From assembly GCA_029667085.1 (NCBI GenBank), contig JARUHJ010000002.1, positions 124,001 through 188,000 of the forward strand: a stretch of 64,000 nt of DNA, given 5' to 3'. Of the stretch, positions 4,420 to 43,607 are shown piece after piece. This DNA is from Deltaproteobacteria bacterium IMCC39524. Its GTDB lineage: Bacteria; Desulfobacterota; Desulfuromonadia; Desulfuromonadales; BM103. Every line of letters starts with the position of its first letter. Positions within the stretch are counted from its first letter, which is position 1. The notes under the pieces are model-generated. The model worked only from the letters and a program-made list of their open reading frames with translations, did not search any database and was not told the origin of the DNA. The translations under genes and the position numbers were made by a program.

Positions 4420-5225
4420 TTCGCACATATAGTTCTCTTTTTGTCCTGATGCTTTTTACGCTATTGGCGGCTCCTGCACTTGTGCTGGCAGCTGACACCG
4501 TGTGCATCGATTGTCACGGCGGTCAGCCTGGCCCTCTCGGTGAGCCGGTTGGGCAATGGCGCACCAGTGTCCACGCTGAGAACGGCATCTCCTGTCACGA
4601 CTGTCATGGTGGCGACCCCACCGATTACGCTATGGCAATGAGTCCCGACAAAGGTTTCATCGGCGCTCCGGAGTATGCAGATGTCCCAGATTTCTGTGGC
4701 CGTTGCCATGTGGGGGTTGCCGATGCCTACAAAGGGGGCGCTCATGGACAAGCCCTTGAAGCTGGCGCGGCGCAATGCGTCGTCTGTCATGGCAATCACG
4801 AGATTCAAAGGGCAAATCTCGACCTGATCAATGAAGAGGCTTGTTCGCAATGTCATTCGTATGAGCGGGCCGCTTTGATTCGCTTGGCTCTGGTTGAAAC
4901 GGATACGATGATTACTGCCACAGAAGGAGATCTTGAACGACTCTACCGTCTCGGTTTCGCGGTTGATGAGATGGAAGATGGACTTTTCAACCAGCGCAAC
5001 AGTTTTCACCGCATCTTCCATGGTGTTGACGTTGAACGAGTACGAGCGGAGACTGCCGACGTGCAGGCCGAAGTCGGTAAGATAAGAAGCGAAGTCGCAG
5101 AGATCGATACAACGATCCAGGAACGTAAACTCTGGGGAAGCGTTGTGCTTGGTCTCTTTATTCTTGCCGGAGTGATCTTCCTTCTGGTGAGGAAAGCTTA
5201 CGAGGAAGAAGAGCGCAGCGGATAA
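4416..5225 (+). CDS. Membrane-anchored pentaheme cytochrome c of the bc-type complex
   Basis: The 269-residue protein has a signal peptide (cleavage near ALA, residue 26) and five CxxCH heme sites: CIDCH (30-34), CHDCH (60-64), CGRCH (94-98), CVVCH (121-125) and CSQCH (143-147). A predicted helical stretch follows, then a C-terminal transmembrane helix near residues 240-262 ending in basic and acidic residues. It probably replaces cytochrome c1 as electron acceptor of the Rieske protein and passes electrons to periplasmic multiheme cytochromes. Translation is coupled to cytochrome b by a 4-base overlap. The Rieske/b/multiheme c gene order matches the Cbc-type complexes of Geobacter; the exact class cannot be set from here. 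Confidence 0.9.
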   Translation: MIRTYSSLFVLMLFTLLAAPALVLAADTVCIDCHGGQPGPLGEPVGQWRTSVHAENGISCHDCHGGDPTDYAMAMSPDKGFIGAPEYADVPDFCGRCHVGVADAYKGGAHGQALEAGAAQCVVCHGNHEIQRANLDLINEEACSQCHSYERAALIRLALVETDTMITATEGDLERLYRLGFAVDEMEDGLFNQRNSFHRIFHGVDVERVRAETADVQAEVGKIRSEVAEIDTTIQERKLWGSVVLGLFILAGVIFLLVRKAYEEEERSG

Positions 5226-5247
5226 GAAGCTGCGAGTATAAAAAAGC

Positions 5248-5286
5248 CAGGGGCGCTGCATCGTGAATGCAGCGCCCCTGTTTGTT
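5248..5286. terminator. Strong bidirectional rho-independent terminator
   Basis: A perfect 14-bp stem (CAGGGGCGCTGCAT and its complement) has a 5-base loop. It is flanked by an A-run on the left and TTTGTTT on the right. It sits between the convergent cytochrome operon and the metallo-beta-lactamase-fold gene and can serve both. Confidence 0.92.
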
Positions 5287-5346
5287 TGAAAAGGTCTCTT
5301 TGCAAAGGAACTCTAGCAGTCTTTCGGACAATCAATAACCTGGCTG

Positions 5347-6267
5347 CTAGGGAAGGAAGTTGTTACTGAGATCGTTGTAGGCGCGCTTGAGATTGAGCTG
5401 GATCAACTGCTCGTAGCCATCCATCTGGTGATACTGAGGCAGGTCGAAGTTTGCCAGGGTCTGTTCCAGGGTCTCGCCGCGCTCAATGTGTTTCAGGACT
5501 TCCGTCAGGAAGTCGCGAAAGAACTGACCGAACTCATAAACATCTTCACTGTCGCCGACCGGTCCATAGCCGGGGATAATCTGTTTAGCATCAATCTGCT
5601 CCAGGAAGTCGAGAGCTAGCAGCCAGTCGGTCATGTAGCCGTTGCCCATATAGCCGACACTGTTAATATAAAGTAGATCGCTGGCGAACAGAACTTCGGC
5701 TTCGGGGATGAAAACAACGATGTCCCCATCGGTATGTCCTTTACCGATATTGGTCAGTACGACCGAGACGCCGCCGGGCTTCAAGGTTAAGCCTTCGTTG
5801 AAAAACATCGTCGAATACTCCGGCTCGCGAACTTCAGAGTCGATGTTTTTCCAGGTTTGCCAACTCATCAAAACGTCTTGGTCCGGCGGAAAATCGAAAT
5901 CAACATAGGTGTATCCGGCGTGATGGTGAGCCAGGATAAAATAACGAATCGGTTTCGTGGTACGGGCTGCGATAGCTCTGCGCAGGTCGTTGATGACCTC
6001 TTTGGTCATGTGAGCCCCTGCGGCAACAACATACTCTTTGCCAACGACAAAGATCGCGTTGGTTGTCGCACTGCCGCCGGGTTTGGCGATAGCCGCAAAG
6101 ACGCCGGCAGACAGCGGCTCAATCTGGAAACTGTCTTGCACTGAGACGACTGCGACTGCCGATCCGATTGGAGCTGGTTTCTTCTTGGGTGTCGCTGCCA
6201 ATGAGCCGGTTGTCAGCATATATGTTAAGATCAGGATGATCAGTAGTATTCGACACATATGGAGCAT
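5347..6267 (-). CDS. Exported metallo-beta-lactamase-fold protein with altered metal site
   Basis: The 306-residue product has a signal peptide (MLHMCRILLIILILTYMLTT, cleavage near SLA-AT). The MBL fold shows in the strand-loop pattern and in GKGHTDGDIVVF (His178) and FASDLLY (Asp197). At the canonical HxHxDH position it reads HHHAGY (114-119): the first two His are kept, but the Asp-His pair is replaced by Gly-Tyr, so only one zinc site or a non-hydrolytic role is likely. The nearest recalled relatives are quinoprotein-relay and SoxH-type hydrolases. The ATG at 6267 or the one three codons later are both possible; neither has a strong ribosome site. Any longer version would read antisense through the tRNA and is not real. 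Confidence 0.75.
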   Translation of the reverse strand: MLHMCRILLIILILTYMLTTGSLAATPKKKPAPIGSAVAVVSVQDSFQIEPLSAGVFAAIAKPGGSATTNAIFVVGKEYVVAAGAHMTKEVINDLRRAIAARTTKPIRYFILAHHHAGYTYVDFDFPPDQDVLMSWQTWKNIDSEVREPEYSTMFFNEGLTLKPGGVSVVLTNIGKGHTDGDIVVFIPEAEVLFASDLLYINSVGYMGNGYMTDWLLALDFLEQIDAKQIIPGYGPVGDSEDVYEFGQFFRDFLTEVLKHIERGETLEQTLANFDLPQYHQMDGYEQLIQLNLKRAYNDLSNNFLP

Positions 6268-19316: not shown

Positions 19317-19396
19317 GAAACTCCGATAAAGGCAAAGTCAGGGTAACCTGATGACGCAAAGCCACGGGTCCTAATTGAGGATAGCCGAGTTACCAG
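19317..19396 (+). promoter_or_regulatory. GEMM-I (cyclic dinucleotide) riboswitch upstream of c7 cytochrome
   Basis: The class-I GEMM core is present: GATAAAGGCAAAG, a P1b stem capped by a GNRA tetraloop (TCAGG-GTAA-CCTGA), GACGCAAAGCCACGGG, and GATAGCCGAGTTACC. The outer stem AACTC/GAGTT closes it. By hand alignment to the well-known Vibrio Vc2 aptamer, the ligand-contacting position 20 reads G, as in c-di-GMP sensors; confirming c-di-GMP versus cGAMP specificity needs a covariance model. Downstream lie a four-codon open frame with a strong ribosome site and a terminator hairpin, then a triheme cytochrome gene. GEMM switches before cytochrome genes are a known Geobacter theme. Confidence 0.88.
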
Positions 19397-19406
19397 GAGG
19401 CCAATA

Positions 19407-20106: not shown

Positions 20107-20198
20107 AAGGTCTCGATAAAACCAAACTTGCTGAAAAGCAGGGACGGAAAGCGGCGGATCTCACTTCTTAAACACTTCCAGATGGCCGAGCTACCGAA
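20107..20198 (+). promoter_or_regulatory. Second GEMM-I-like riboswitch, variant core
   Basis: The core reads CGATAAAACCAAAC, a P1b stem with GAAA tetraloop (TTGCT-GAAA-AGCAG), GGGACGGAAAGCGGCGG, and GATGGCCGAGCTACC. Outer stem GGT-CTC pairs with GAG-ct-ACC. Relative to Vc2 the 21:46 pair appears changed from G-C to C-G (a covariation), and position 20 reads A. A20 is the change reported to favour cGAMP over c-di-GMP, so this may be a cGAMP switch; that is inference from hand alignment. It controls the exported EFDYSPR-repeat gene 65 bases downstream. Confidence 0.7.
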
Positions 20199-20233
20199 GG
20201 ACAAATTCTAACGGTGCGCTCGGTTTTATTTTT
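20186..20233 (+). terminator. Terminator overlapping the riboswitch 3' strand
   Basis: CCGAG-C-TACCG pairs with CGGTG-CG-CTCGG and runs into TTTTATTTTT. The left arm is also the 3' strand of the aptamer's closing stem, so aptamer folding and termination exclude each other. Ligand binding should therefore turn the downstream gene on. Confidence 0.75.
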
Positions 20234-34392: not shown

Positions 34393-35424
34393 TTATTTTA
34401 TAGTCAACATCCCCGGATGATCCCCGACAACCCGACCAATATGGATCGCATTACAGCCAGCCGCCTCAAGTTGAACCTTAAGCTGCGATAACTTGTCTTC
34501 CGCTACACAGATCATCAGGCCGCCAGAGGTCTGCGGATCGGCGAGAATGTCCACGATCACAGGAGCGACCCGTTCACGATTGACCACGCTTGGCATATAA
34601 TGCTCTCGATTACGATAACTGCCGACCGGCACCAGGCCGATTTCAGCAAGATCTATAACTTGGGGATAAACGTGCAAAGCAGAGGCTTCGATTTCGAGGC
34701 CGACCTGGCTGGCGTCTGCCAACTCCTGAGCGTGACCGAGTAAGCCGAAGCCGGTAATGTCGGTGCAGGCATTTACACCCACCTTGAGCATGACTTCCGA
34801 AGCCGCGCGGTTCAAGGTCTCCATGCCTTGAATGGCCTCTTTCATCTGCTCTTCCTTGATGACCTCGCCTTTTAATGCTGTTGCCAGAATACCGACTCCG
34901 AGAGGTTTGGTCAGCACTAGAACGTCTCCAGCTTTTGCTCCGGCCGTGGTAATCAGGTTCTTCGGATCAACCAGGCCGGTTACGGCCAGCCCGAATTTCG
35001 GCTCGTCATCCTCAACAGTGTGGCCGCCGACAACAATCGCTCCGGCTTCGTGCACCTTCTCTGCTCCCCCTTTAAGGATTTCGACCAGGACGTCCTCTTC
35101 AAGGCAGGCCGGGAAACCGACCAGGTTCAGCACCGTGAGAGGCTTTCCGCCCATGGCATAGATGTCGGAGAGGGCATTGGCCGCAGCAATGCGCCCAAAA
35201 ATGCGCGGATCGTCGACGATCGGGGTGAAGAAGTCGACCGATTGCACCAGGGCACAGTCCGGCGCGATTTGATAAACACCTGCATCCGCAAAGGGAATCG
35301 ACGCGGTGAGGAAGTTCTTGTCTTCAACCGTTGGTAGCTGGCGCAGCACCTGCGCCAATGGCCCGGGGGCCATCTTGGCGGCTCAACCGCTGGTTTTGGA
35401 CAGGTGAGACAGTTTTACGCTCAT
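34393..35424 (-). CDS. selD: Selenide, water dikinase; itself a selenoprotein (Sec at codon 14)
   Basis: The enzyme makes selenophosphate from selenide and ATP, the Se donor for Sec-tRNA. Reading from the ATG at 35424 gives MSVKLSHLSKTSG, then TGA (35383-35385), then AAKMAPGPLAQVL and a full-length 343-residue SelD. The TGA sits exactly at the catalytic Cys/Sec of the family's GC/U-AAK motif. Just after it, CCA-AG-ATGGCC...GGCCAT-TGG can form a bulged stem with apical loop CCCG, a fitting bacterial SECIS. Glycine-rich and Asp motifs (VVGGHTVEDDE, DITGFGLLGHAQELA) are intact. GGAG precedes the ATG. A start at the internal ATG would delete the active site. Confidence 0.93.
35355..35385 (-). promoter_or_regulatory. 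Candidate bSECIS element in selD
   Basis: The stem CCA/TGG plus ATGGCC/GGCCAT, with an AG bulge and loop CCCG, is centred about 18 bases after the Sec TGA. This spacing fits SelB-bound bacterial SECIS hairpins. Confidence 0.65.
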
Positions 35425-35435
35425 TGTGTTCGCTC

Positions 35436-35513
35436 CAAACTTGGGACGAGGGACGTGGTCCGCGGGACGAGAAAAGCTTTCCGCGCTCCGCGTACCTCGT
35501 ACCGCGTTCCGTT
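35436..35513. repeat. GGGACGAGGGACG-type intergenic repeat
   Basis: Degenerate G(G/A)GACGAG(A/G) and CGCGTACCTCGTACC units form an imperfect inverted repeat between selB and selD. A related fragment (GGTGCGTGGGGCGCGGTCCG) lies at about 32384. Confidence 0.55.
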
Positions 35514-37422
35514 ATTTAGGTAATTGCCAGGCGACGCGTTCGTCACCTTTACGCATAGTGTACTTGAGGCTATCGAAGAGTTCCAGAATTGCCTGGGTTT
35601 GTTTGCGGGCGCTGCCGATCAGGTCGCGGAACTCGCCCAGGGTCAGGGTCTCTTTTGAACCGAAATGATTGACCAGAGAGGTGAGCGCTTTCTGGTAGGC
35701 CGCCTTGTGCAGGAATGAATCATCGTTGAGGCGAATCAGGACGCCGTTGGCAAAAAGGAACGCGAGTAATGATTCCACCTGTGTATCGGGAACTCCTGCC
35801 AGAGCCAGCATATCGACGCGGCCTTTGGCCTCAACGCCGGCATCCAGGTAAACTTTTTCAAGCTTTTGTAACAGCTGCTCCTGCTTTTCGGTCGGCTGAG
35901 CGGTAAAGTCGATTCTTGCAACCCACTCTCCGCGTTGTACCAGTTGCGACTCATCAACGAGTTCGCCAAGGAGTTGTTCAAAAGCTTTCGGCGCAACCTT
36001 CGCAGGCAACGCAGATTTGAGGGTTGCGTGCGGAATGCCGGGTTGCAGAGCATTGTCCCGGTGATAGTTGTCAACCGCGTCCAGAAGGGTGCGTTGCCAG
36101 GCCCGTGCGGTTTCCATGGTCACCCATTGGTCACCGATCCTGGTGACTTGCGAGGCTTCGGTGAGGCTTTCCAGGAGAGCTGTAATCTTCTCCCTGCCCA
36201 AGCCCGAGGCCTGTTCCAGTTCCTTTAGCTTGACACAACCGAGCTCGGCAAGTTTCTGGACAATAAAAGAACCCTCTCCCGATTCCAGCTCTTTCAGGGC
36301 GTGCATCACCCCATCACGGAAGCGTTTATGTTTCACCGGTGTGGGGTCGATGATCTGGCCGCCGCCGATCGTCGCCATCGGTGAGTAGGAACGAACGATG
36401 AAGCGATCCTGGCGATGGGCGACCAGGGGGCTGTCGAGATGAAATTGAGCGAGCACGCTTTCGCCCTGCTGCATTTCGTCGCGATCAAGCAGCGCCACGC
36501 GGGCGGTGACCTTGGCGGTTCCCATATGCAGATGAACGGGGTCGCGAAACTTGAGTGGGCGCGGTGCTTCTTTGAGCAGATTGAGCCGGGCATCGAAACG
36601 CTCGGTCATGGTAAAGAATCCGGGGGTTGCCACCACGGCACCTCGGGTCAGGTTGCTGCGTTCCAGTCCAGCAAGGTTGAGTGCCACACGCTGACCGGCT
36701 CTGGCCACCTCTGCTTTTTCACCGTGAACCTGAACCTCACGGACCCTGACGGTTTCGCCGGGCGGCATGACTTCAACCGTGTCGCCGACCTTGATTTTTC
36801 CTGAGAGGAGCGTACCGGTGACCACCGTACCGAAGCCGCTGATCGTGAAATGCCGATCGATCGGCAGGCGCGTCGGACCCTCTTCATCGCGCGGTGGCAA
36901 CTCTTTGAGAATCTCCTGAATCGTCTGTCGAAGCTCTTCAAGCCCCAGTCCCTGCAGCGCGGACACCCGGCAACAAGGTGCTTTTTCCAGAAAGGTTCCG
37001 GCGAGAGTCTCGCGAACCTCTTCTTCGACGATGTCGATCCAGTCTTCTTCCGCAAGGTCACACTTGGTCAGCACCAGGATGCCGCGTGGGATCTGCAGCA
37101 GTTGCAAAATCTGCAGATGCTCGCGGGTCTGCTGCATGACCCCTTCATTAACATCGACGACCAGCAGGACCAGGTCGATGCCGCCGATTCCGGAGAGCAT
37201 GTTGTGGATGAATTTCTCGTGACCGGGAACGTCAACGACCCCGGCCATGCTGCCATCTGCCAGTTTGAAGGGTGCGAAGCCGAGATCGATGGAGATGCCA
37301 CGTTCCTGCTCTTCTTTCAGGCGGTCGGTATTGATGCCGGTGAGCTTATTGATCAGGACCGTCTTGCCGTGGTCAACGTGACCGGCCGTGCCGATGATGT
37401 GGTAGCGGGTTGAGTCGTTCAT
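35512..37422 (-). CDS. selB: Selenocysteine-specific elongation factor
   Basis: The 636-residue protein has the G domain GTAGHVDHGKTVLINKLTGI (residues 11-30), GISIDLGFA (switch), VDVPGHEKFIHNM and LTKCDLAEED. These are followed by two EF-Tu-like beta-barrel domains (RHFTISGFGTVVTGTLLSG) and four C-terminal winged helices, the last ending KGDERVAWQLPK. It carries Sec-tRNA to the ribosome at UGA codons followed by a SECIS hairpin. Its two visible clients in this window are selD and the AhpD-like gene. It sits between selA and selD on the same strand. Confidence 0.95.
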   Translation of the reverse strand: MNDSTRYHIIGTAGHVDHGKTVLINKLTGINTDRLKEEQERGISIDLGFAPFKLADGSMAGVVDVPGHEKFIHNMLSGIGGIDLVLLVVDVNEGVMQQTREHLQILQLLQIPRGILVLTKCDLAEEDWIDIVEEEVRETLAGTFLEKAPCCRVSALQGLGLEELRQTIQEILKELPPRDEEGPTRLPIDRHFTISGFGTVVTGTLLSGKIKVGDTVEVMPPGETVRVREVQVHGEKAEVARAGQRVALNLAGLERSNLTRGAVVATPGFFTMTERFDARLNLLKEAPRPLKFRDPVHLHMGTAKVTARVALLDRDEMQQGESVLAQFHLDSPLVAHRQDRFIVRSYSPMATIGGGQIIDPTPVKHKRFRDGVMHALKELESGEGSFIVQKLAELGCVKLKELEQASGLGREKITALLESLTEASQVTRIGDQWVTMETARAWQRTLLDAVDNYHRDNALQPGIPHATLKSALPAKVAPKAFEQLLGELVDESQLVQRGEWVARIDFTAQPTEKQEQLLQKLEKVYLDAGVEAKGRVDMLALAGVPDTQVESLLAFLFANGVLIRLNDDSFLHKAAYQKALTSLVNHFGSKETLTLGEFRDLIGSARKQTQAILELFDSLKYTMRKGDERVAWQLPK

Positions 37423-37551: not shown

Positions 37552-38952
37552 TCAACAGAAAATCTGCTTCAGGGCCTTCAAAAGCAAGGCTTCATCCTCC
37601 TGGTTCAGGGTCCGGGGGTCGATCAGGAACCGATCGTCCTGAATGCGCCCGATAACAGCCGGCTCACAACTGCGTAATCGCGTTGTCAGCTCATTGAGAG
37701 AGATTTGCTTTGGCGCCAGAGCGATGACGCATCCGGGCAGCTCGGCAAGAGGCAGCGCGCCGCCACCCACGGTTGCCGTTGTTTCGATGATGCCACAGTC
37801 TGCTTTGTCGCCAAGATGAGTCAAGAGATGGGGCAGGAGGTTTTCGCAGCGGTACTGCAACTCCTCGACCGGCAATGACAGCATTCTCAAGGTGGGGATT
37901 TGCTGCAAAGCTTTCCGGGGATCAAGATAAAGCCTGAGGGTCGCTTCGAGGGCCGCCAGGCTCAGCTTGTCACTCCTCAGGGCGCGGGCCATGGGGTGCT
38001 TGCGGACCTTGTCGATAACGTCTTTATTGCCGACGATGATCCCTGCCTGGGGTCCTCCGAGCAGCTTGTCGCCGCTGAAGGTGACCAGGTCGATGCCGGT
38101 TCCCAGTGCTTCCCGTACCGTTGGCTCGCGTGGCAGTCCATAAGGGGTCAGGTCCATCAACAGGCCGCTACCGAGATCTTCGAGGACCGGAATGTTTTGT
38201 TGATGAGCAAGTTCAGCCAGCTCTTCGCCGCTGACCGCTTCGGTGAAGCCCAGGATCCGGTAGTTGCTGGTGTGGACCTTGAGAATAAGCGCCGTCTCTT
38301 TGTTGATGGCGTCAGCGTAATCCTTGAGATGAGTCTTGTTGGTGGTGCCCACTTCAACCAGTTCGACACCACTGGCCGCCATAATGTCCGGGATACGGAA
38401 AGAGCCGCCGATCTCGATCAGCTCGCCACGTGAGACGATGGCACTCTTGCCACCGGACAGGGCTGCCAGGGCGAGCATGACCGCGCCGGCGTTGTTGTTG
38501 ACCACCGTCGCTGCTTCGCCACCGGTCAGCTTGCAGATCAGTTCTTCAACATGGGTGAAGCGTTTGCCGCGTTGGCCTGCATCGAGATCATACTCAAGGT
38601 TGGAATACCCCTGGGCAACCTCTTTGATTGCCTGCAGCGCTTCGTTGCAGAGCGGCGCCCGACCGAGGTTGGTGTGCAGAAGCGTGCCGGTAACATTGAT
38701 GACCTTGCGTAAAGAGGGCTTGGCCATCAACGCGACCCGAACGGCGACCCGTTCGGCAACGGCCTCAATGTCCAGGTCGGGCAGGGGGGCCTTTTGGTCA
38801 AGAAGCTGTTGGCGCAGGTCGTCGACAACCTGCTGGGCGGCCTCAAGAATCAGAAGGTGGGGTTGAGTTTCCTCAAGCTTGGAGAGGATTCTGGACCCCA
38901 GCAGCCTATCGATTGCAGGCAGAGTGCGCAAGAGTGCGCGGCGATCAGGCAT
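37552..38952 (-). CDS. selA: L-seryl-tRNA(Sec) selenium transferase
   Basis: The 466-residue PLP enzyme converts Ser-tRNA(Sec) to Sec-tRNA(Sec) using selenophosphate. Recognisable parts are the N-terminal helical tRNA-binding region, INVTGTLLHTNLGRAPL, NNNAGAVMLALAALS, EVGTTNKTHLKDY and the PLP-lysine loop TFSGDKLLGGPQAGIIVG. GGAGGTGA lies before the ATG. It follows the AhpD-like selenoprotein gene after 45 bases and heads the selA-selB-selD series. Confidence 0.96.
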   Translation of the reverse strand: MPDRRALLRTLPAIDRLLGSRILSKLEETQPHLLILEAAQQVVDDLRQQLLDQKAPLPDLDIEAVAERVAVRVALMAKPSLRKVINVTGTLLHTNLGRAPLCNEALQAIKEVAQGYSNLEYDLDAGQRGKRFTHVEELICKLTGGEAATVVNNNAGAVMLALAALSGGKSAIVSRGELIEIGGSFRIPDIMAASGVELVEVGTTNKTHLKDYADAINKETALILKVHTSNYRILGFTEAVSGEELAELAHQQNIPVLEDLGSGLLMDLTPYGLPREPTVREALGTGIDLVTFSGDKLLGGPQAGIIVGNKDVIDKVRKHPMARALRSDKLSLAALEATLRLYLDPRKALQQIPTLRMLSLPVEELQYRCENLLPHLLTHLGDKADCGIIETTATVGGGALPLAELPGCVIALAPKQISLNELTTRLRSCEPAVIGRIQDDRFLIDPRTLNQEDEALLLKALKQIFC

Positions 38953-38997
38953 GGGTCACCTCCAGATGTTTTACGTCGCAGAATTTACGGGTCTGTT

Positions 38998-39270
38998 TCA
39001 GTCTTGGGAAGGAGGGGGGATGTCGCGCATCATGACGTTGATCTTGCCGGCGGCAACAGCCATGACGATCCCCTGGATGGCGCCGATTTCTTCGTCTGTA
39101 ATCTTCTGTTCCCTGGCCACGCCAAGGTAGTATTCGACTCATGGCTGGCATTCCCGGGCCATGGCGGCAGCCAACCCTATCATCGCTGTGGTGCGAGAAT
39201 CGAGCTGCTTTTCGTTGCGAACCGTGTCGTAGAAATCGCAGTAGGCTTTATGTTGTTCGGCTGGCAGCAT
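38998..39270 (-). CDS. AhpD-like (carboxymuconolactone decarboxylase family) selenoprotein, CxxU
   Basis: The frame from the ATG at 39270 reads MLPAEQHKAYCDFYDTVRNE ... GLAAAMARECQP, then TGA (39139-39141), then VEYYLGVAREQKITDEEIGA and on to a TGA stop, 90 residues in all. The segment around the first TGA is the AhpD active site (usually ExCxxC...H-like), here ECQPU, so the TGA encodes Sec at residue 44. CCTTGGC-GTG-GCCAGG forms a hairpin with its loop 20 bases after the TGA. The product would be a thiol/selenol redox protein of AhpD type, reducing peroxides or disulfides. AAAAGG lies 12-13 bases before the ATG, a little distant. It is upstream of selA in the same direction. Confidence 0.88.
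39112..39141 (-). promoter_or_regulatory. Candidate bSECIS element in the AhpD-like selenoprotein gene
   Basis: Directly after the Sec TGA, the minus strand folds as CCT-t-GGC / GCC-AGG with loop GTG. Stem, bulge and distance agree with bacterial SECIS elements. Confidence 0.6.
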
Positions 39271-39803
39271 TATTTCATGACCTTTTGATGCGTCATCTGT
39301 TGGTTATGTTTCCCTGTAGTTTGTGTAACAAATTGCGTTCCAACTTTCAACTAATATTCACAAAAGTGATTGACGAAGTCCCTCTGCCGTAAGGATGGGG
39401 CAAGGTGGTGATGACCTGTGCAAACTGGGCCTGATGATTGCATCAACGTGGTCACAGCAATATTCTGGGGTACTTTTAAGCCTTTTCAAGGTCAAGGATG
39501 ATTAAATGGAGGACATGGCGCTCCTTTGAGGGCATGAGTTCAGCGGAGCACCCTATACTTAGAGGGACAATAATGGTCTTTTCACTGTTGCTAAACTGTG
39601 ATATTTTACCGCGTTATTGTGCCCTTTGCAGGGAAAGGGCGTAAATTGTTCTTTGGGGGAAGACGCTTCTTATCGCTTTGATGCTAAAGCGAAACAAACA
39701 TCTATCCTGTGTGAATCCTCCTTTTACCTTTCATTACATCGAAAAGCTGACGTTTATGATTTGGAACTGCAAGGAAATTTTTCTGATTGCAAGGAGCAGG
39801 GTT
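39271..39803. other. 530-bp divergent gap between the sel operon and the secretion locus
   Basis: There is no convincing gene. It must hold the promoters of both operons. Candidate -10-like ACCCTATACTTAG lies near 39550 on the plus strand; no operator or riboswitch is recognised. In-frame codons exist upstream of the TolC-like gene's GTG start, but they lack a ribosome site. Confidence 0.5.
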
Positions 39804-42800
39804 GTGCTTGCTAGTCTCAGGTGGTGTGTTTGCTGTTCACTCCTTTTGACTCTGCAATTTGTTGCGTCTTCATTTGTTTCGACCTCTGCTGCCGAAGTGC
39901 AGTTGGGCACCGATGATTCGACATCATCAACCCGTGCATCTTCGAGTCGGTCTGAGTCTTTCGTCAGTCCCCTCACGACACCAACGGGGATTGTGATGGG
40001 TTTTGTCCTGGGGGTGGGTGAGCTTCCGGAGTTTTCAAAAGATTTGGAGGCCGTTGGTTTTTATCTGCAAGAGCAGTTATCCCTGCCGGTCAAGATGCGT
40101 ACTTTTGGAAGCGATGACCAGCTATACAACTGGTTGTCGCGTTTTAGAGAGGTTGATGTCGCCTGGCTCAGTGAGGATTTCCTCAAGAGTCTCCCTGTCG
40201 GAGACGTTTCCTCTCTGGCTCAAAGCCCAAGGCCTTCTGGTCTTTTCCCCTCGGGAGAGCTCGTCGCTCACCCCGGCTTTGATGGTGAACTCCGTCAACG
40301 GATCAGTGATGTCTTTTTGAGTATGGATCAAACATCTTCGGGGCGGGAGTTGTTGGCTCGACTTGAAATTGAACATTTTGTTGCGTCATCTCAAAGAATG
40401 CCCTCGAAGGTGGCAGAGGCGGTTGTGCCGGCGGGAGAGCCTGGTTCCCCCCTTGATGAAGTCAAAGGCATACCGATGTCGGTGTTTGTTGCCGGTCGCG
40501 CAACGCAGACCGGGCGCACGCCAGAATCTCGAGTCCTCGAGTCCGAGGACGACGTGGAGCTTAATGCTCTGGTTCGCTCCCCTGCTGCAGAAGATTTTGT
40601 CGAGCCTTTAGAGCCAGCGAGCTCTTCAAGAGCACCCGACGTGTTAATTGCTTCTCCCCCATCTCGGGACACCATTGATTCCGAACGTGTCTCGATCGGT
40701 TTTATTGTGGATGATTGCGATAATTTATCGCCATCAAAAAATATGCAGAAATTCAGTTTCTACCTGCAAGAACACCTCTCAATCCCCGTTCAGGTGCGCA
40801 ACTTTTGCACGGAAGATCAGTTATATGACTGGTTAATTCGTTTCAGAGAGGTTGATGCTGCCTGGTTCAGCAAGCAATTCCTCGATGAACTCCCCGTTGG
40901 AGAAATTTTTTCCCTAGCAGAGAATCCAAGTCCTTCTTCAGTGTTTCCTTACGGAGAACTCGTCGCTCGTCCAGGGGTTGAAGATGATCTTCGCAAGCAG
41001 ATAAGTGGTGCTCTGCTGAGCATGGAGCAAACCGCCCCGGGGCGCCAGTTGTTGGCCGAGCTTGAGGTCAGTCGTTTTGTTCCACCACCTCATCGGCAAC
41101 CGTCTCCAGAGCGAAAAGAGACCGTGCAGCGGGACGATTCTGGCGACTATCTCGCGATAAGCGACAATGCATCGCACCTCTCGGAATCGAAGAGTTCTGA
41201 CGTTTCACCGCCACTTTTGTCCAGTCCTGTTCCTGCATTGGCAGAAACCCCGTCGATGCCGGTGACTTCTGCTGGGCAAGCAGAGCAGGTTGTCAGCAGA
41301 CCAAAAGCTCAATCAGTTGAGCTTTTGGAGCAAGAAAAACTTGCACCAGCAAACTCCAGTTCAAAGGCGTCTTCACCACTTCGAAAGACTGATGGGGCCG
41401 GGCAGGTTTTGATCGGTTTTGTCGCCGATGATGGTGCTCTGGTTCAATCTTCAAAAGCCGAGGAGAAAATCGGTCGTTATCTTCAAGCCCAGCTGTCCGT
41501 ACCTATCAAGATGCGCAGCTTCGATACGGAAGCTCAGCTGTATAGCTGGTTGACTCGATTCAGGGAAGTCGACGCGGCATGGCTCAGTAAAACATTCCTC
41601 GATAAACTACCTGTTGGTGAAGTCTTTCGTCTGGCTCAAAGCTCAAGTCCTTCATCGGCTTTGCCTTACGGCGAGTTGGCTGCCCATCCAGGTGCGGATG
41701 GTGAACTCAGGAAACGGATAGGCGCTGCTCTGCTGGGTATGGAGCGAACCTCTGCTGGTCGCGAGCTTTTGGCTGAGCTTGAAATCAGTCGTTTTGTGTC
41801 GTCATCTCAAAAAGAGGCCTCTTCAGAAATGGAGGAACTGGCGCCGCTCGGTGAAACAGAGCCCGCTCGTGCGGTGAATACCGATAAATCGCAGGCCTCA
41901 GAACAGAATGAACCCGAGGCTGCCCCGGCAGTTTTGCTCAATGCCGTTCCTGCTTCGGTTGAAACCCCGTCGGTGCCGGTGGCCGGTGCCGGTCAAACAG
42001 CTCAGGATCTCCGCACACAAGAATCTGTATTCGTCGAGCCTGAGAATGTTGAAAAGACTGCTGATCTGGAAGTACCTACTGTTCGAGAAGACTCTGGCGA
42101 GTCTTCAGCTCCAAAAGATTCTTCTCAATCAAGCACTATCCCAGAGATCTCTTCTTCAGCACAAAGTGTTGAAGACTCCAGGCCGGTTGCAGATGGTTTG
42201 AATGTGCCGGGGGAGCGAAGCTTGGCGGGGTTGGTTGGTCGGTCTGAAATTTCAGTCCTCGCAGACGCCGAAGGGCAGTTTGTGAAAAGCATGGCGATCA
42301 ATCAAGTGTTGGAAGATGAATTCGCCAACCAGGTCGGAGAAACAGACCTTCAGGAGTCGATCAGCGCCGGTCGAAGTTTTAGTCGCGAAAGTCTTGCTGC
42401 TTTGGCGCGTGTTGAACAGGCGGAAGCGCAAACCGGGCAGGCTCTCGCCCAAATGCTGCCTTCCGTTACACTTCGGGCAAATCGTGGTTATGAGACCTCT
42501 GAGCCTTCCGTTGTCGTGGATGAAACAACCGGGGAACTTATCGACTCTGATAAGCACATTCGGACTGATACTGCGCTTACCATTCGTCAGCCTTTGTTTG
42601 ATCTTCCCATCTTTCTGGATTGGCAACGTCGCAAGGTCAAAGAACAGGCTCGCGACGAGGGTTATCGGGGCAATGACGGCGATGCCTATCTCTCCACTGT
42701 CAGCTCCTACCTTTCTCTGGTCTCCAGTCGTTTGCAGGCTGATGTGACGCGCGACTTTGAAAAACAGCTTGACGAGCTACTGACCTATATCGAAAAAAGA

Positions 42801-43607
42801 TCCGAAGCTGGAGCAGCCAGCGTTTCTGACATGACCCGTGTACTCGCGCGCAGTCAGGCGACTGTGTCCTCCCGATTGGAGCTTGAGTCTGCCCATGCTG
42901 CGGCGGGGTCTGAATTTGTTCGGCTGACCAACCTTGTCCCTGAGAAGGTTCGGCTCCCGGTCGTTGAGGACGTTGGCGCCTCGTTGCTGCCGGAATCCTT
43001 TGATGAAGCTGTTGCTGTTGCTATGAAACACAACCCTGATATTGCTGCGCTCACCGCTGAACTTGAGGCTGCAAAAATTGACCAGCACTCAGCAAAGGGC
43101 CGCTATCTGCCCCGTGTTGACGCCGAGTACACGGACACCTATTCCCGTGGCGCAGGTGGTGCTCCCAGTGAAGACGACCAGAGAGACAAGCGCCTCATGC
43201 TGGTGTTGAACTGGGAGCTTTTCAGCGGCGGAAACGACTACAATTTTCATCTTGAAAAAGTAGCGCGACACAAAGAGTTGCAGTACCGTCTGGACGATCA
43301 GCGTCGTAGCGTTGTGCAAGCCCTTTCAGCCAATTATGCTGCTCTTACATCAACGAGGGATCGGATTAAGTCCGGGTACCAGGAGTTGGAGTCGATCTCC
43401 ATTGCGTCAGAAGCCATGTCAAAAAGGATGCTTTCCGGAAACCAGTCTCTACTGGATCTTCTGGATGTCTACAACCAGCACTACCAGGTTCGTGCCCGCT
43501 TGGTCAGCTTGCATACTCTTGAGATGAACACGGTGGCGCAGTTGGCTCGACTGACACTCGGCACTCCGTGGGCGAAGTCTGAAAGAAGGTCTTCTCAGGG
43601 TGAATGA
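39804..43607 (+). CDS. TolC-like outer-membrane channel with three N-terminal repeated modules
   Basis: The 1,267-residue protein is about three times a normal TolC. The start is the GTG with AAGGAG 7 bases upstream, giving a signal peptide (LASLRWCVCCSLLLTLQFVA). Three modules of about 135 residues (about 62-197, 294-430, 533-669) share IGF(V/I), YLQxQLSxPxxxR(T/N/S)F, LxRFREVD(V/A)AW(L/F)S, LP(V)GE(V/I) and GRxLLAxLE(I/V)xxFV. These are joined by Ser/Pro/Glu-rich linkers. The pattern resembles part of PhnD-type periplasmic binding proteins. Residues about 850-1265 are an outer-membrane efflux protein domain (SRESLAALARVEQAEAQTGQ to LARLTLGTPW). It is first in the adhesin secretion operon, the SiiC/LapE position. 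Confidence 0.85.
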   Translation: MLASLRWCVCCSLLLTLQFVASSFVSTSAAEVQLGTDDSTSSTRASSSRSESFVSPLTTPTGIVMGFVLGVGELPEFSKDLEAVGFYLQEQLSLPVKMRTFGSDDQLYNWLSRFREVDVAWLSEDFLKSLPVGDVSSLAQSPRPSGLFPSGELVAHPGFDGELRQRISDVFLSMDQTSSGRELLARLEIEHFVASSQRMPSKVAEAVVPAGEPGSPLDEVKGIPMSVFVAGRATQTGRTPESRVLESEDDVELNALVRSPAAEDFVEPLEPASSSRAPDVLIASPPSRDTIDSERVSIGFIVDDCDNLSPSKNMQKFSFYLQEHLSIPVQVRNFCTEDQLYDWLIRFREVDAAWFSKQFLDELPVGEIFSLAENPSPSSVFPYGELVARPGVEDDLRKQISGALLSMEQTAPGRQLLAELEVSRFVPPPHRQPSPERKETVQRDDSGDYLAISDNASHLSESKSSDVSPPLLSSPVPALAETPSMPVTSAGQAEQVVSRPKAQSVELLEQEKLAPANSSSKASSPLRKTDGAGQVLIGFVADDGALVQSSKAEEKIGRYLQAQLSVPIKMRSFDTEAQLYSWLTRFREVDAAWLSKTFLDKLPVGEVFRLAQSSSPSSALPYGELAAHPGADGELRKRIGAALLGMERTSAGRELLAELEISRFVSSSQKEASSEMEELAPLGETEPARAVNTDKSQASEQNEPEAAPAVLLNAVPASVETPSVPVAGAGQTAQDLRTQESVFVEPENVEKTADLEVPTVREDSGESSAPKDSSQSSTIPEISSSAQSVEDSRPVADGLNVPGERSLAGLVGRSEISVLADAEGQFVKSMAINQVLEDEFANQVGETDLQESISAGRSFSRESLAALARVEQAEAQTGQALAQMLPSVTLRANRGYETSEPSVVVDETTGELIDSDKHIRTDTALTIRQPLFDLPIFLDWQRRKVKEQARDEGYRGNDGDAYLSTVSSYLSLVSSRLQADVTRDFEKQLDELLTYIEKRSEAGAASVSDMTRVLARSQATVSSRLELESAHAAAGSEFVRLTNLVPEKVRLPVVEDVGASLLPESFDEAVAVAMKHNPDIAALTAELEAAKIDQHSAKGRYLPRVDAEYTDTYSRGAGGAPSEDDQRDKRLMLVLNWELFSGGNDYNFHLEKVARHKELQYRLDDQRRSVVQALSANYAALTSTRDRIKSGYQELESISIASEAMSKRMLSGNQSLLDLLDVYNQHYQVRARLVSLHTLEMNTVAQLARLTLGTPWAKSERRSSQGE

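Follow-up and report, generated by a model that had tools for sequence, protein, structure and literature searches.

A small gene at the front of the sel operon, named cmdU here, very probably encodes a genuine selenoprotein: UGA44 would be read as selenocysteine (Sec) through a SECIS hairpin, the product would be an oxidoreductase with the carboxymuconolactone decarboxylase (CMD) fold, and the gene would have moved once to its present position. The selenoprotein gene, the SECIS, the fold family and the operon position are shown by comparative sequence evidence, while co-transcription, the chemistry and the physiological substrate are what we infer. The window (the whole stretch of 64,000 nucleotides analysed) holds the following features of the locus.

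38998..39270, minus strand: cmdU, candidate CxxU CMD-family selenoprotein gene, 90 aa; start ATG 39270-39268, stop TGA 39000-38998
39139..39141, minus strand: in-frame TGA, predicted selenocysteine codon, residue 44 (C41-x-x-U44), from orthologue comparison
39111..39127, minus strand: predicted bacterial SECIS hairpin CCUUGGC-GUG-GCCAGGG, from covariation, frozen synonymous sites and thermodynamics
38953..38997, minus strand: cmdU-selA gap of 45 nt, holding the selA ribosome-binding site (CUGGAGGUGACCC)
37552..38952, minus strand: selA, L-seryl-tRNA(Sec) selenium transferase (PF03841, 538 bits; TIGR00474)
35512..37422, minus strand: selB, selenocysteine-specific elongation factor (GTP_EFTU, SelB beta-barrel and SelB winged-helix Pfam domains)
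34393..35424, minus strand: selD, selenophosphate synthetase (TIGR00476, 348 bits), with an in-frame TGA at 35385-35383 in SGUAAK

The cmdU reading frame and codon 44

The cmdU frame comprises 90 codons with one internal TGA only, at codon 44 (39141-39139), so that the CxxU motif reads C41-Q-P-U44. Its translation is MLPAEQHKAYCDFYDTVRNEKQLDSRTTAMIGLAAAMARECQPUVEYYLGVAREQKITDEEIGAIQGIVMAVAAGKINVMMRDIPPPSQD, followed by the stop. The original prediction had described an interrupted 90-residue frame at 38998-39270, in which a single TGA replaces the second Cys of a CxxC pair. We could confirm the coordinates and the replaced Cys but corrected the strand, as the gene lies on the minus strand; a plus-strand reading of 38998-39270 was rejected, its translation being unrelated. 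It had also been expected that routine gene calling would miss the frame. Indeed, under table 11 the region yields only short overlapping frames and the cmdU protein is not among them; in at least 50 genomes, standard annotation is likely to overlook the gene or cut it short. The same split could be taken to mean two short proteins (residues 1-43 and the product of an internal restart) in place of one selenoprotein. We consider this highly improbable, since in the predicted model the TGA falls within the active-site helix (H42-54) and the Cys relatives are continuous.

Orthologues were collected from a first set of 58 related genomes, an order-wide set of 136 genomes and a phylum sample of 395 genomes. 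The first set gave 20 orthologues, besides weaker matches, each with one in-frame TGA at the identical position. Order-wide, codon 44 was TGA at 44 of the 46 orthologous loci; one locus had TTA (G135) and one was a fragment without this codon (G107). Ten additional TGA orthologues, all in other families, came from the phylum sample, bringing the total to about 55 in Desulfuromonadales and other Desulfobacterota. The orthologues share the TGA, the downstream frame and the hairpin far beyond chance.

Homologues with Sec or Cys at this position, whose absence would have spoken against the original prediction, were thus found in both forms: four distant stop-free relatives carry Cys (TGC) aligned to U44, in the motifs CYPC, CPAC, CRHC and CKHC. 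A conserved UGA together with Cys in stop-free relatives is the pattern by which bacterial selenoproteins are recognised. The conserved hairpin sequence was absent from all four Cys relatives, and in the two of them that were folded no hairpin of the cmdU type formed. Both sides of the TGA appear equally constrained as protein, because dN/dS (Nei-Gojobori) was 0.19 for codons 23-43 before it and 0.17 for codons 54-82 after it. A lack of conservation downstream of the TGA in relatives would also have refuted the prediction, and the purifying selection found there shows the opposite.

These data also bear on whether cmdU is a pseudogene, left behind when a point mutation created the TGA and inactivated a CMD gene. 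A stop codon does break the frame, and three related genomes hold broken copies. However, the same TGA recurs in about 54 orthologues from many families, and the downstream conservation, in which purifying selection is combined with a covarying hairpin, refutes this explanation, to which we attach almost no weight.

The hairpin downstream of the TGA

The hairpin that had been noticed after the TGA was recovered at 39127-39111. It begins 11 nt past the UGA and consists of a 7-bp stem capped by a GUN triloop (GUG here), with a folding energy of -10.5 kcal/mol when folded alone. Its apical loop starts 18 nt past the UGA, the same distance as in E. coli fdhF, the sequence of which we verified and folded. 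A SECIS prediction had been proposed as a check. Published limits for bacterial SECIS elements (PMC13188914) are a loop of 3-9 nt, a stem of 4-16 bp, a G in the first two loop bases, a UGA-to-loop distance of 16-37 nt and a minimum free energy at or below -7.5, and the cmdU hairpin lies within all of them (3 nt, 7 bp, GUG, 18 nt and -10.5 kcal/mol). No Rfam family matched the hairpin at the gathering threshold. We also weighed a bulged-U hairpin of the E. coli fdhF type and rejected it, because in orthologues with GCCAAGG the U in question has an A as its partner and the 7-bp stem fits better.

Covariation was analysed in 48 distinct sequences, where 99.1% of hairpin pair cells were paired and five of the seven pairs showed double-sided changes (11 cells). 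None of 500 shuffles reached any of the five covariation measures, and sliding the partner by 1-3 bases as a control reduced pairing to 20-62%. In one orthologue (L141), both arms were remodelled to CCUCGAC-GGG-GUCGGGG and the protein at this place changed from LGVA to LDGVG. Synonymous divergence (pS) was 0.21 in the hairpin codons versus about 0.67 elsewhere, and 0.000 within the gene's own family. Judged by this comparative evidence the hairpin is a SECIS, and the cmdU orthologues make up an unusually clean, covarying SECIS family. The YLGVAR of the protein would then owe its strict conservation partly to the RNA; the Cys relatives do not keep this stretch. Copies of the hairpin sequence elsewhere (e.g. 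in G042, G119 and G120) were few, hardly different in number from the background given by the reversed pattern, about 4 per 136 genomes.

The genome holds the machinery for Sec insertion, comprising SelA, SelB, SelD and a tRNA-Sec with anticodon UCA, which is encoded on the same contig about 4.6 kb outside the window. SelB and this tRNA would decode UGA44 as selenocysteine, directed by the 7-bp SECIS 11 nt downstream. An open frame with TGA taken as X does not itself specify the residue, and the codon could in principle be read as Trp or by a near-cognate suppressor. We regard such a reading as scarcely credible, given the presence of tRNA-Sec(UCA) and selABD, the SECIS-type hairpin, the alignment of Cys rather than Trp in stop-free relatives, and the fact that cmdU itself also ends in TGA.

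Family, fold and proposed chemistry

AhpD features had been claimed for both sides of the TGA. The broad assignment to the CMD superfamily was borne out, as cmdU with U read as C scored 40.6 bits against PF02627 (cut-off 23) over residues 8-74, but the AhpD core was not: TIGR00778 gave 13.7 bits against a cut-off of 27.8. In place of the AhpD-core His, which follows the second active-site Cys at a distance of four residues, cmdU has a Tyr; this Tyr48 is invariant in 20 orthologues and aligns to His in 3bey. We conclude that cmdU is not AhpD proper, because the core model fails and Tyr occupies the active-site His position. It shares with AhpD (1KNC) the superfamily fold and a CxxC-type active site, although the structural match to 1KNC is weak (TMq 0.47).

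Among NCBIfam models, the best matches were ArsM_AhpD_UU (NF041537) at 51.6 bits and MduS (NF045649) at 47.8 bits, and an orthologue from family f8 reached 63 and 58 bits against the same two models. These are C-terminal domain matches only, well short of the full-length cut-offs of 510 and 380. CxxU is given for both families (PMC13188914), and cmdU resembles their C-terminal AhpD domain; unlike them, it is a stand-alone domain with no methyltransferase part. The GSU3128 family (NF041047), a 'distant AhpD homolog' of Geobacter, is likewise a short, single-domain CMD protein with CxxU, but cmdU scored 23.3 bits against its cut-off of 110. A second AhpD-superfamily selenoprotein of this genome (L003, G000:C5:150763-150936) is a true GSU3128-family member, with CPDU and 145.7 bits. 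Its sequence CPDULTKH has the His four residues after Sec that cmdU lacks.

AhpD/CMD-superfamily selenoproteins with CxxU have featured in the literature since 2005-2008 (PMC1088965, PMC2398784) and also appear in a 2026 review (PMC13188914). They include a CMD domain-containing or CMD-like CxxU selenoprotein from the Sargasso Sea (PMC1088965), listed in a PF02627 row of PMC13188914, and the pfam02627 selenoprotein AhpD-like 2 from GOS (PMC2398784). The likeness of cmdU to the Sargasso and GOS proteins is known from the shared Pfam family and CxxU alone. No NCBIfam model (June 2026) covers the cmdU subfamily. With the published proteins compared by description, cmdU appears to represent a new subfamily within the known AhpD/CMD-like selenoproteins with CxxU, a well-supported addition that lies beyond the reach of NCBIfam models.

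An AlphaFold model of cmdU (pLDDT 83, pTM 0.61) showed four helices, in keeping with the all-helical CMD fold. C41 lies just before helix 3 (H42-54) and U44 within its start. The best structural matches were the CMD proteins 3bey (TMq 0.73), RclX 7y4r (TMq 0.68) and TM1620; all top matches were CMD with probability 1.00, though the best Foldseek E-value against PDB was no better than 3e-3. The product would thus be a 90-residue all-helical CMD protein whose active-site C-x-x-Sec pair sits where the third helix begins. Most likely it would work as a small selenol-thiol oxidoreductase, either a peroxidase or a disulfide reductase. By analogy with the CxxC/CxxU class, the Sec44 selenolate would attack the oxidised substrate and Cys41 would resolve the selenenyl-sulfide. 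The AhpD relay is completed by a His, and we do not assume AhpD activity for cmdU because the relay-His position is an invariant Tyr. This invariance may itself reflect RNA, since Tyr48 lies in the SECIS-constrained YLGVAR.

Position at the head of the sel operon

The gene order on the minus strand is cmdU, selA (beginning 45 nt past the cmdU stop), selB and selD. Scanning the cmdU-selA gap revealed no terminator-like site, and a Shine-Dalgarno-like sequence precedes selA; cmdU is probably co-transcribed with selA-selB-selD. Mechanical ORF calling begins selD at 35373, 17 codons late and beyond a Sec codon. SelD itself is a predicted selenoprotein, because MSVKLSHLSKTSG-U-AAK lies in frame upstream of the called start. 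The operon would accordingly begin (cmdU) and end (selD) with Sec clients.

That cmdU heads selA-selB-selD is confirmed, and the arrangement is shared by 18 genomes from two families. In the gene's own family (f1), selA was found in 20 of 22 genomes and cmdU in 15 of these 20, always directly before selA, while one genome that is 99% complete (G006) had neither. The linkage was also found in three genomes of family f17 (G051, G135 and G037). We built a maximum-likelihood tree of cmdU from 83 columns; many of its forks are unresolved, but the 17 selA-linked rows formed one clade with support 91/92. Since they fall in one clade, the linkage looks like a single relocation, one evolutionary event in which cmdU moved to the front of the sel operon in this lineage. 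Four selA-positive genomes of the own family carry no cmdU, which makes the gene dispensable. Where cmdU is missing, a tRNA-Sec gene stands directly upstream of selA in two genomes (L112 in G016, 6012-6107; L116 in G030, 2045-2140), so the head position of the operon is variable. In another genome (L109 in G132, reverse complement ~5140-5553), an inserted segment of roughly 150-170 bp interrupts cmdU at the Sec codon and is flanked on either side by CAACCGTGA, in the manner of a target-site duplication.

We searched the open-licence literature for a selenoprotein encoded ahead of selA and found no paper on one, nor any that places a CMD-like selenoprotein at the head of a sel operon or with hsp33. 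The genomic position of cmdU is thus one for which we found no report, and the locus offers a concrete case for a little-studied question, the bacterial regulation of the selenocysteine operon. It had been claimed that this position couples a client to its own biosynthesis genes, a statement that holds as gene linkage and is limited to that.

A first cistron bearing a SECIS could mainly, or also, be a regulatory leader for selA-selB-selD. SelB binding and read-through of the UGA would signal how much selenium and Sec-tRNA is available, and the three genes would be tuned by early termination at UGA44 or by SelB staying on the hairpin. In E. coli, a SECIS-type RNA precedes selA in the sel mRNA, and the SelB autoregulation system was reportedly described by Thanbichler and Boeck in 2002. 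The arrangement here is similar in having a SECIS-type RNA ahead of selA and differs in that the SECIS lies inside a coding selenoprotein gene; the likeness is one of sequence arrangement. E. coli SelB autoregulation, cited in PMC8124441, serves as the analogue for a leader role.

In the selA-linked clade cmdU is fixed at the head of selA, usually exactly 45 nt away. Three selA-linked genomes have a broken protein and an intact hairpin. G037 (L058) shows an apparent 1-nt deletion before the TGA, and G135 (L090) has TTA (Leu) as codon 44. In G011 (L110) about 45 nt are left, which run from CCATGA to shortly after the SECIS and lie about 210 nt ahead of selA. This relic (reverse complement ~5870-5906) gave a local alignment score of 47, whereas shuffles reached 28 at most; the four further f1 genomes with selA but no cmdU scored 16-20. 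An intact hairpin next to a damaged protein in these three genomes is suggestive of a retained RNA element. However, recent decay or errors in draft assemblies may account for the three broken copies, and the cmdU protein is under purifying selection along its entire length. Orthologues away from sel genes keep the same hairpin, so its conservation needs no regulatory role, and the four selA-positive genomes of the own family do without such a leader. A regulatory role therefore seems to us possible but on balance unlikely. We are a little more doubtful of its most specific form, in which the leader senses selenium: the reading of UGA44 as Sec and the presence of SelB on the SECIS would set expression of selA-selB-selD, the operon would gauge its own product via a client, and the SECIS could outlast the protein as a regulatory relic, as in G011, G037 and G135.

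Away from the sel genes, the neighbours of cmdU bear on the function of the oxidoreductase that we favour. In family f8, an ABC-2 permease gene, cmdU and hsp33 follow one another on one strand in 19 of 19 loci examined, and this conserved hsp33 neighbourhood speaks for an involvement in oxidative protein stress. Taken together, the neighbours suggest work in oxidative stress and thiol redox, and name no substrate. One genome (G015) has a gene for a Prx-like UxxC selenoprotein directly upstream of cmdU; a general Prx-cmdU operon was rejected, as G015 alone had a Prx-like neighbour among the loci examined.

The source genome is probably selenoprotein-rich. On contigs C1, C3 and C4 of this genome we observed five redoxin-domain matches (L127-L131) with one in-frame TGA each. 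Divergent from the sel operon, the window encodes a 1309-aa protein (39678-43607, plus strand) in which three Phosphonate-bd stretches (PF12974) are fused to a TolC-type outer-membrane efflux domain (PF02321), and a gene for an HlyD-family protein comes after it. Two c-di-GMP-I riboswitch variants, of the UAU and GGC types, lie 0.7 kb apart on the plus strand at 19322-19398 and 20112-20199.
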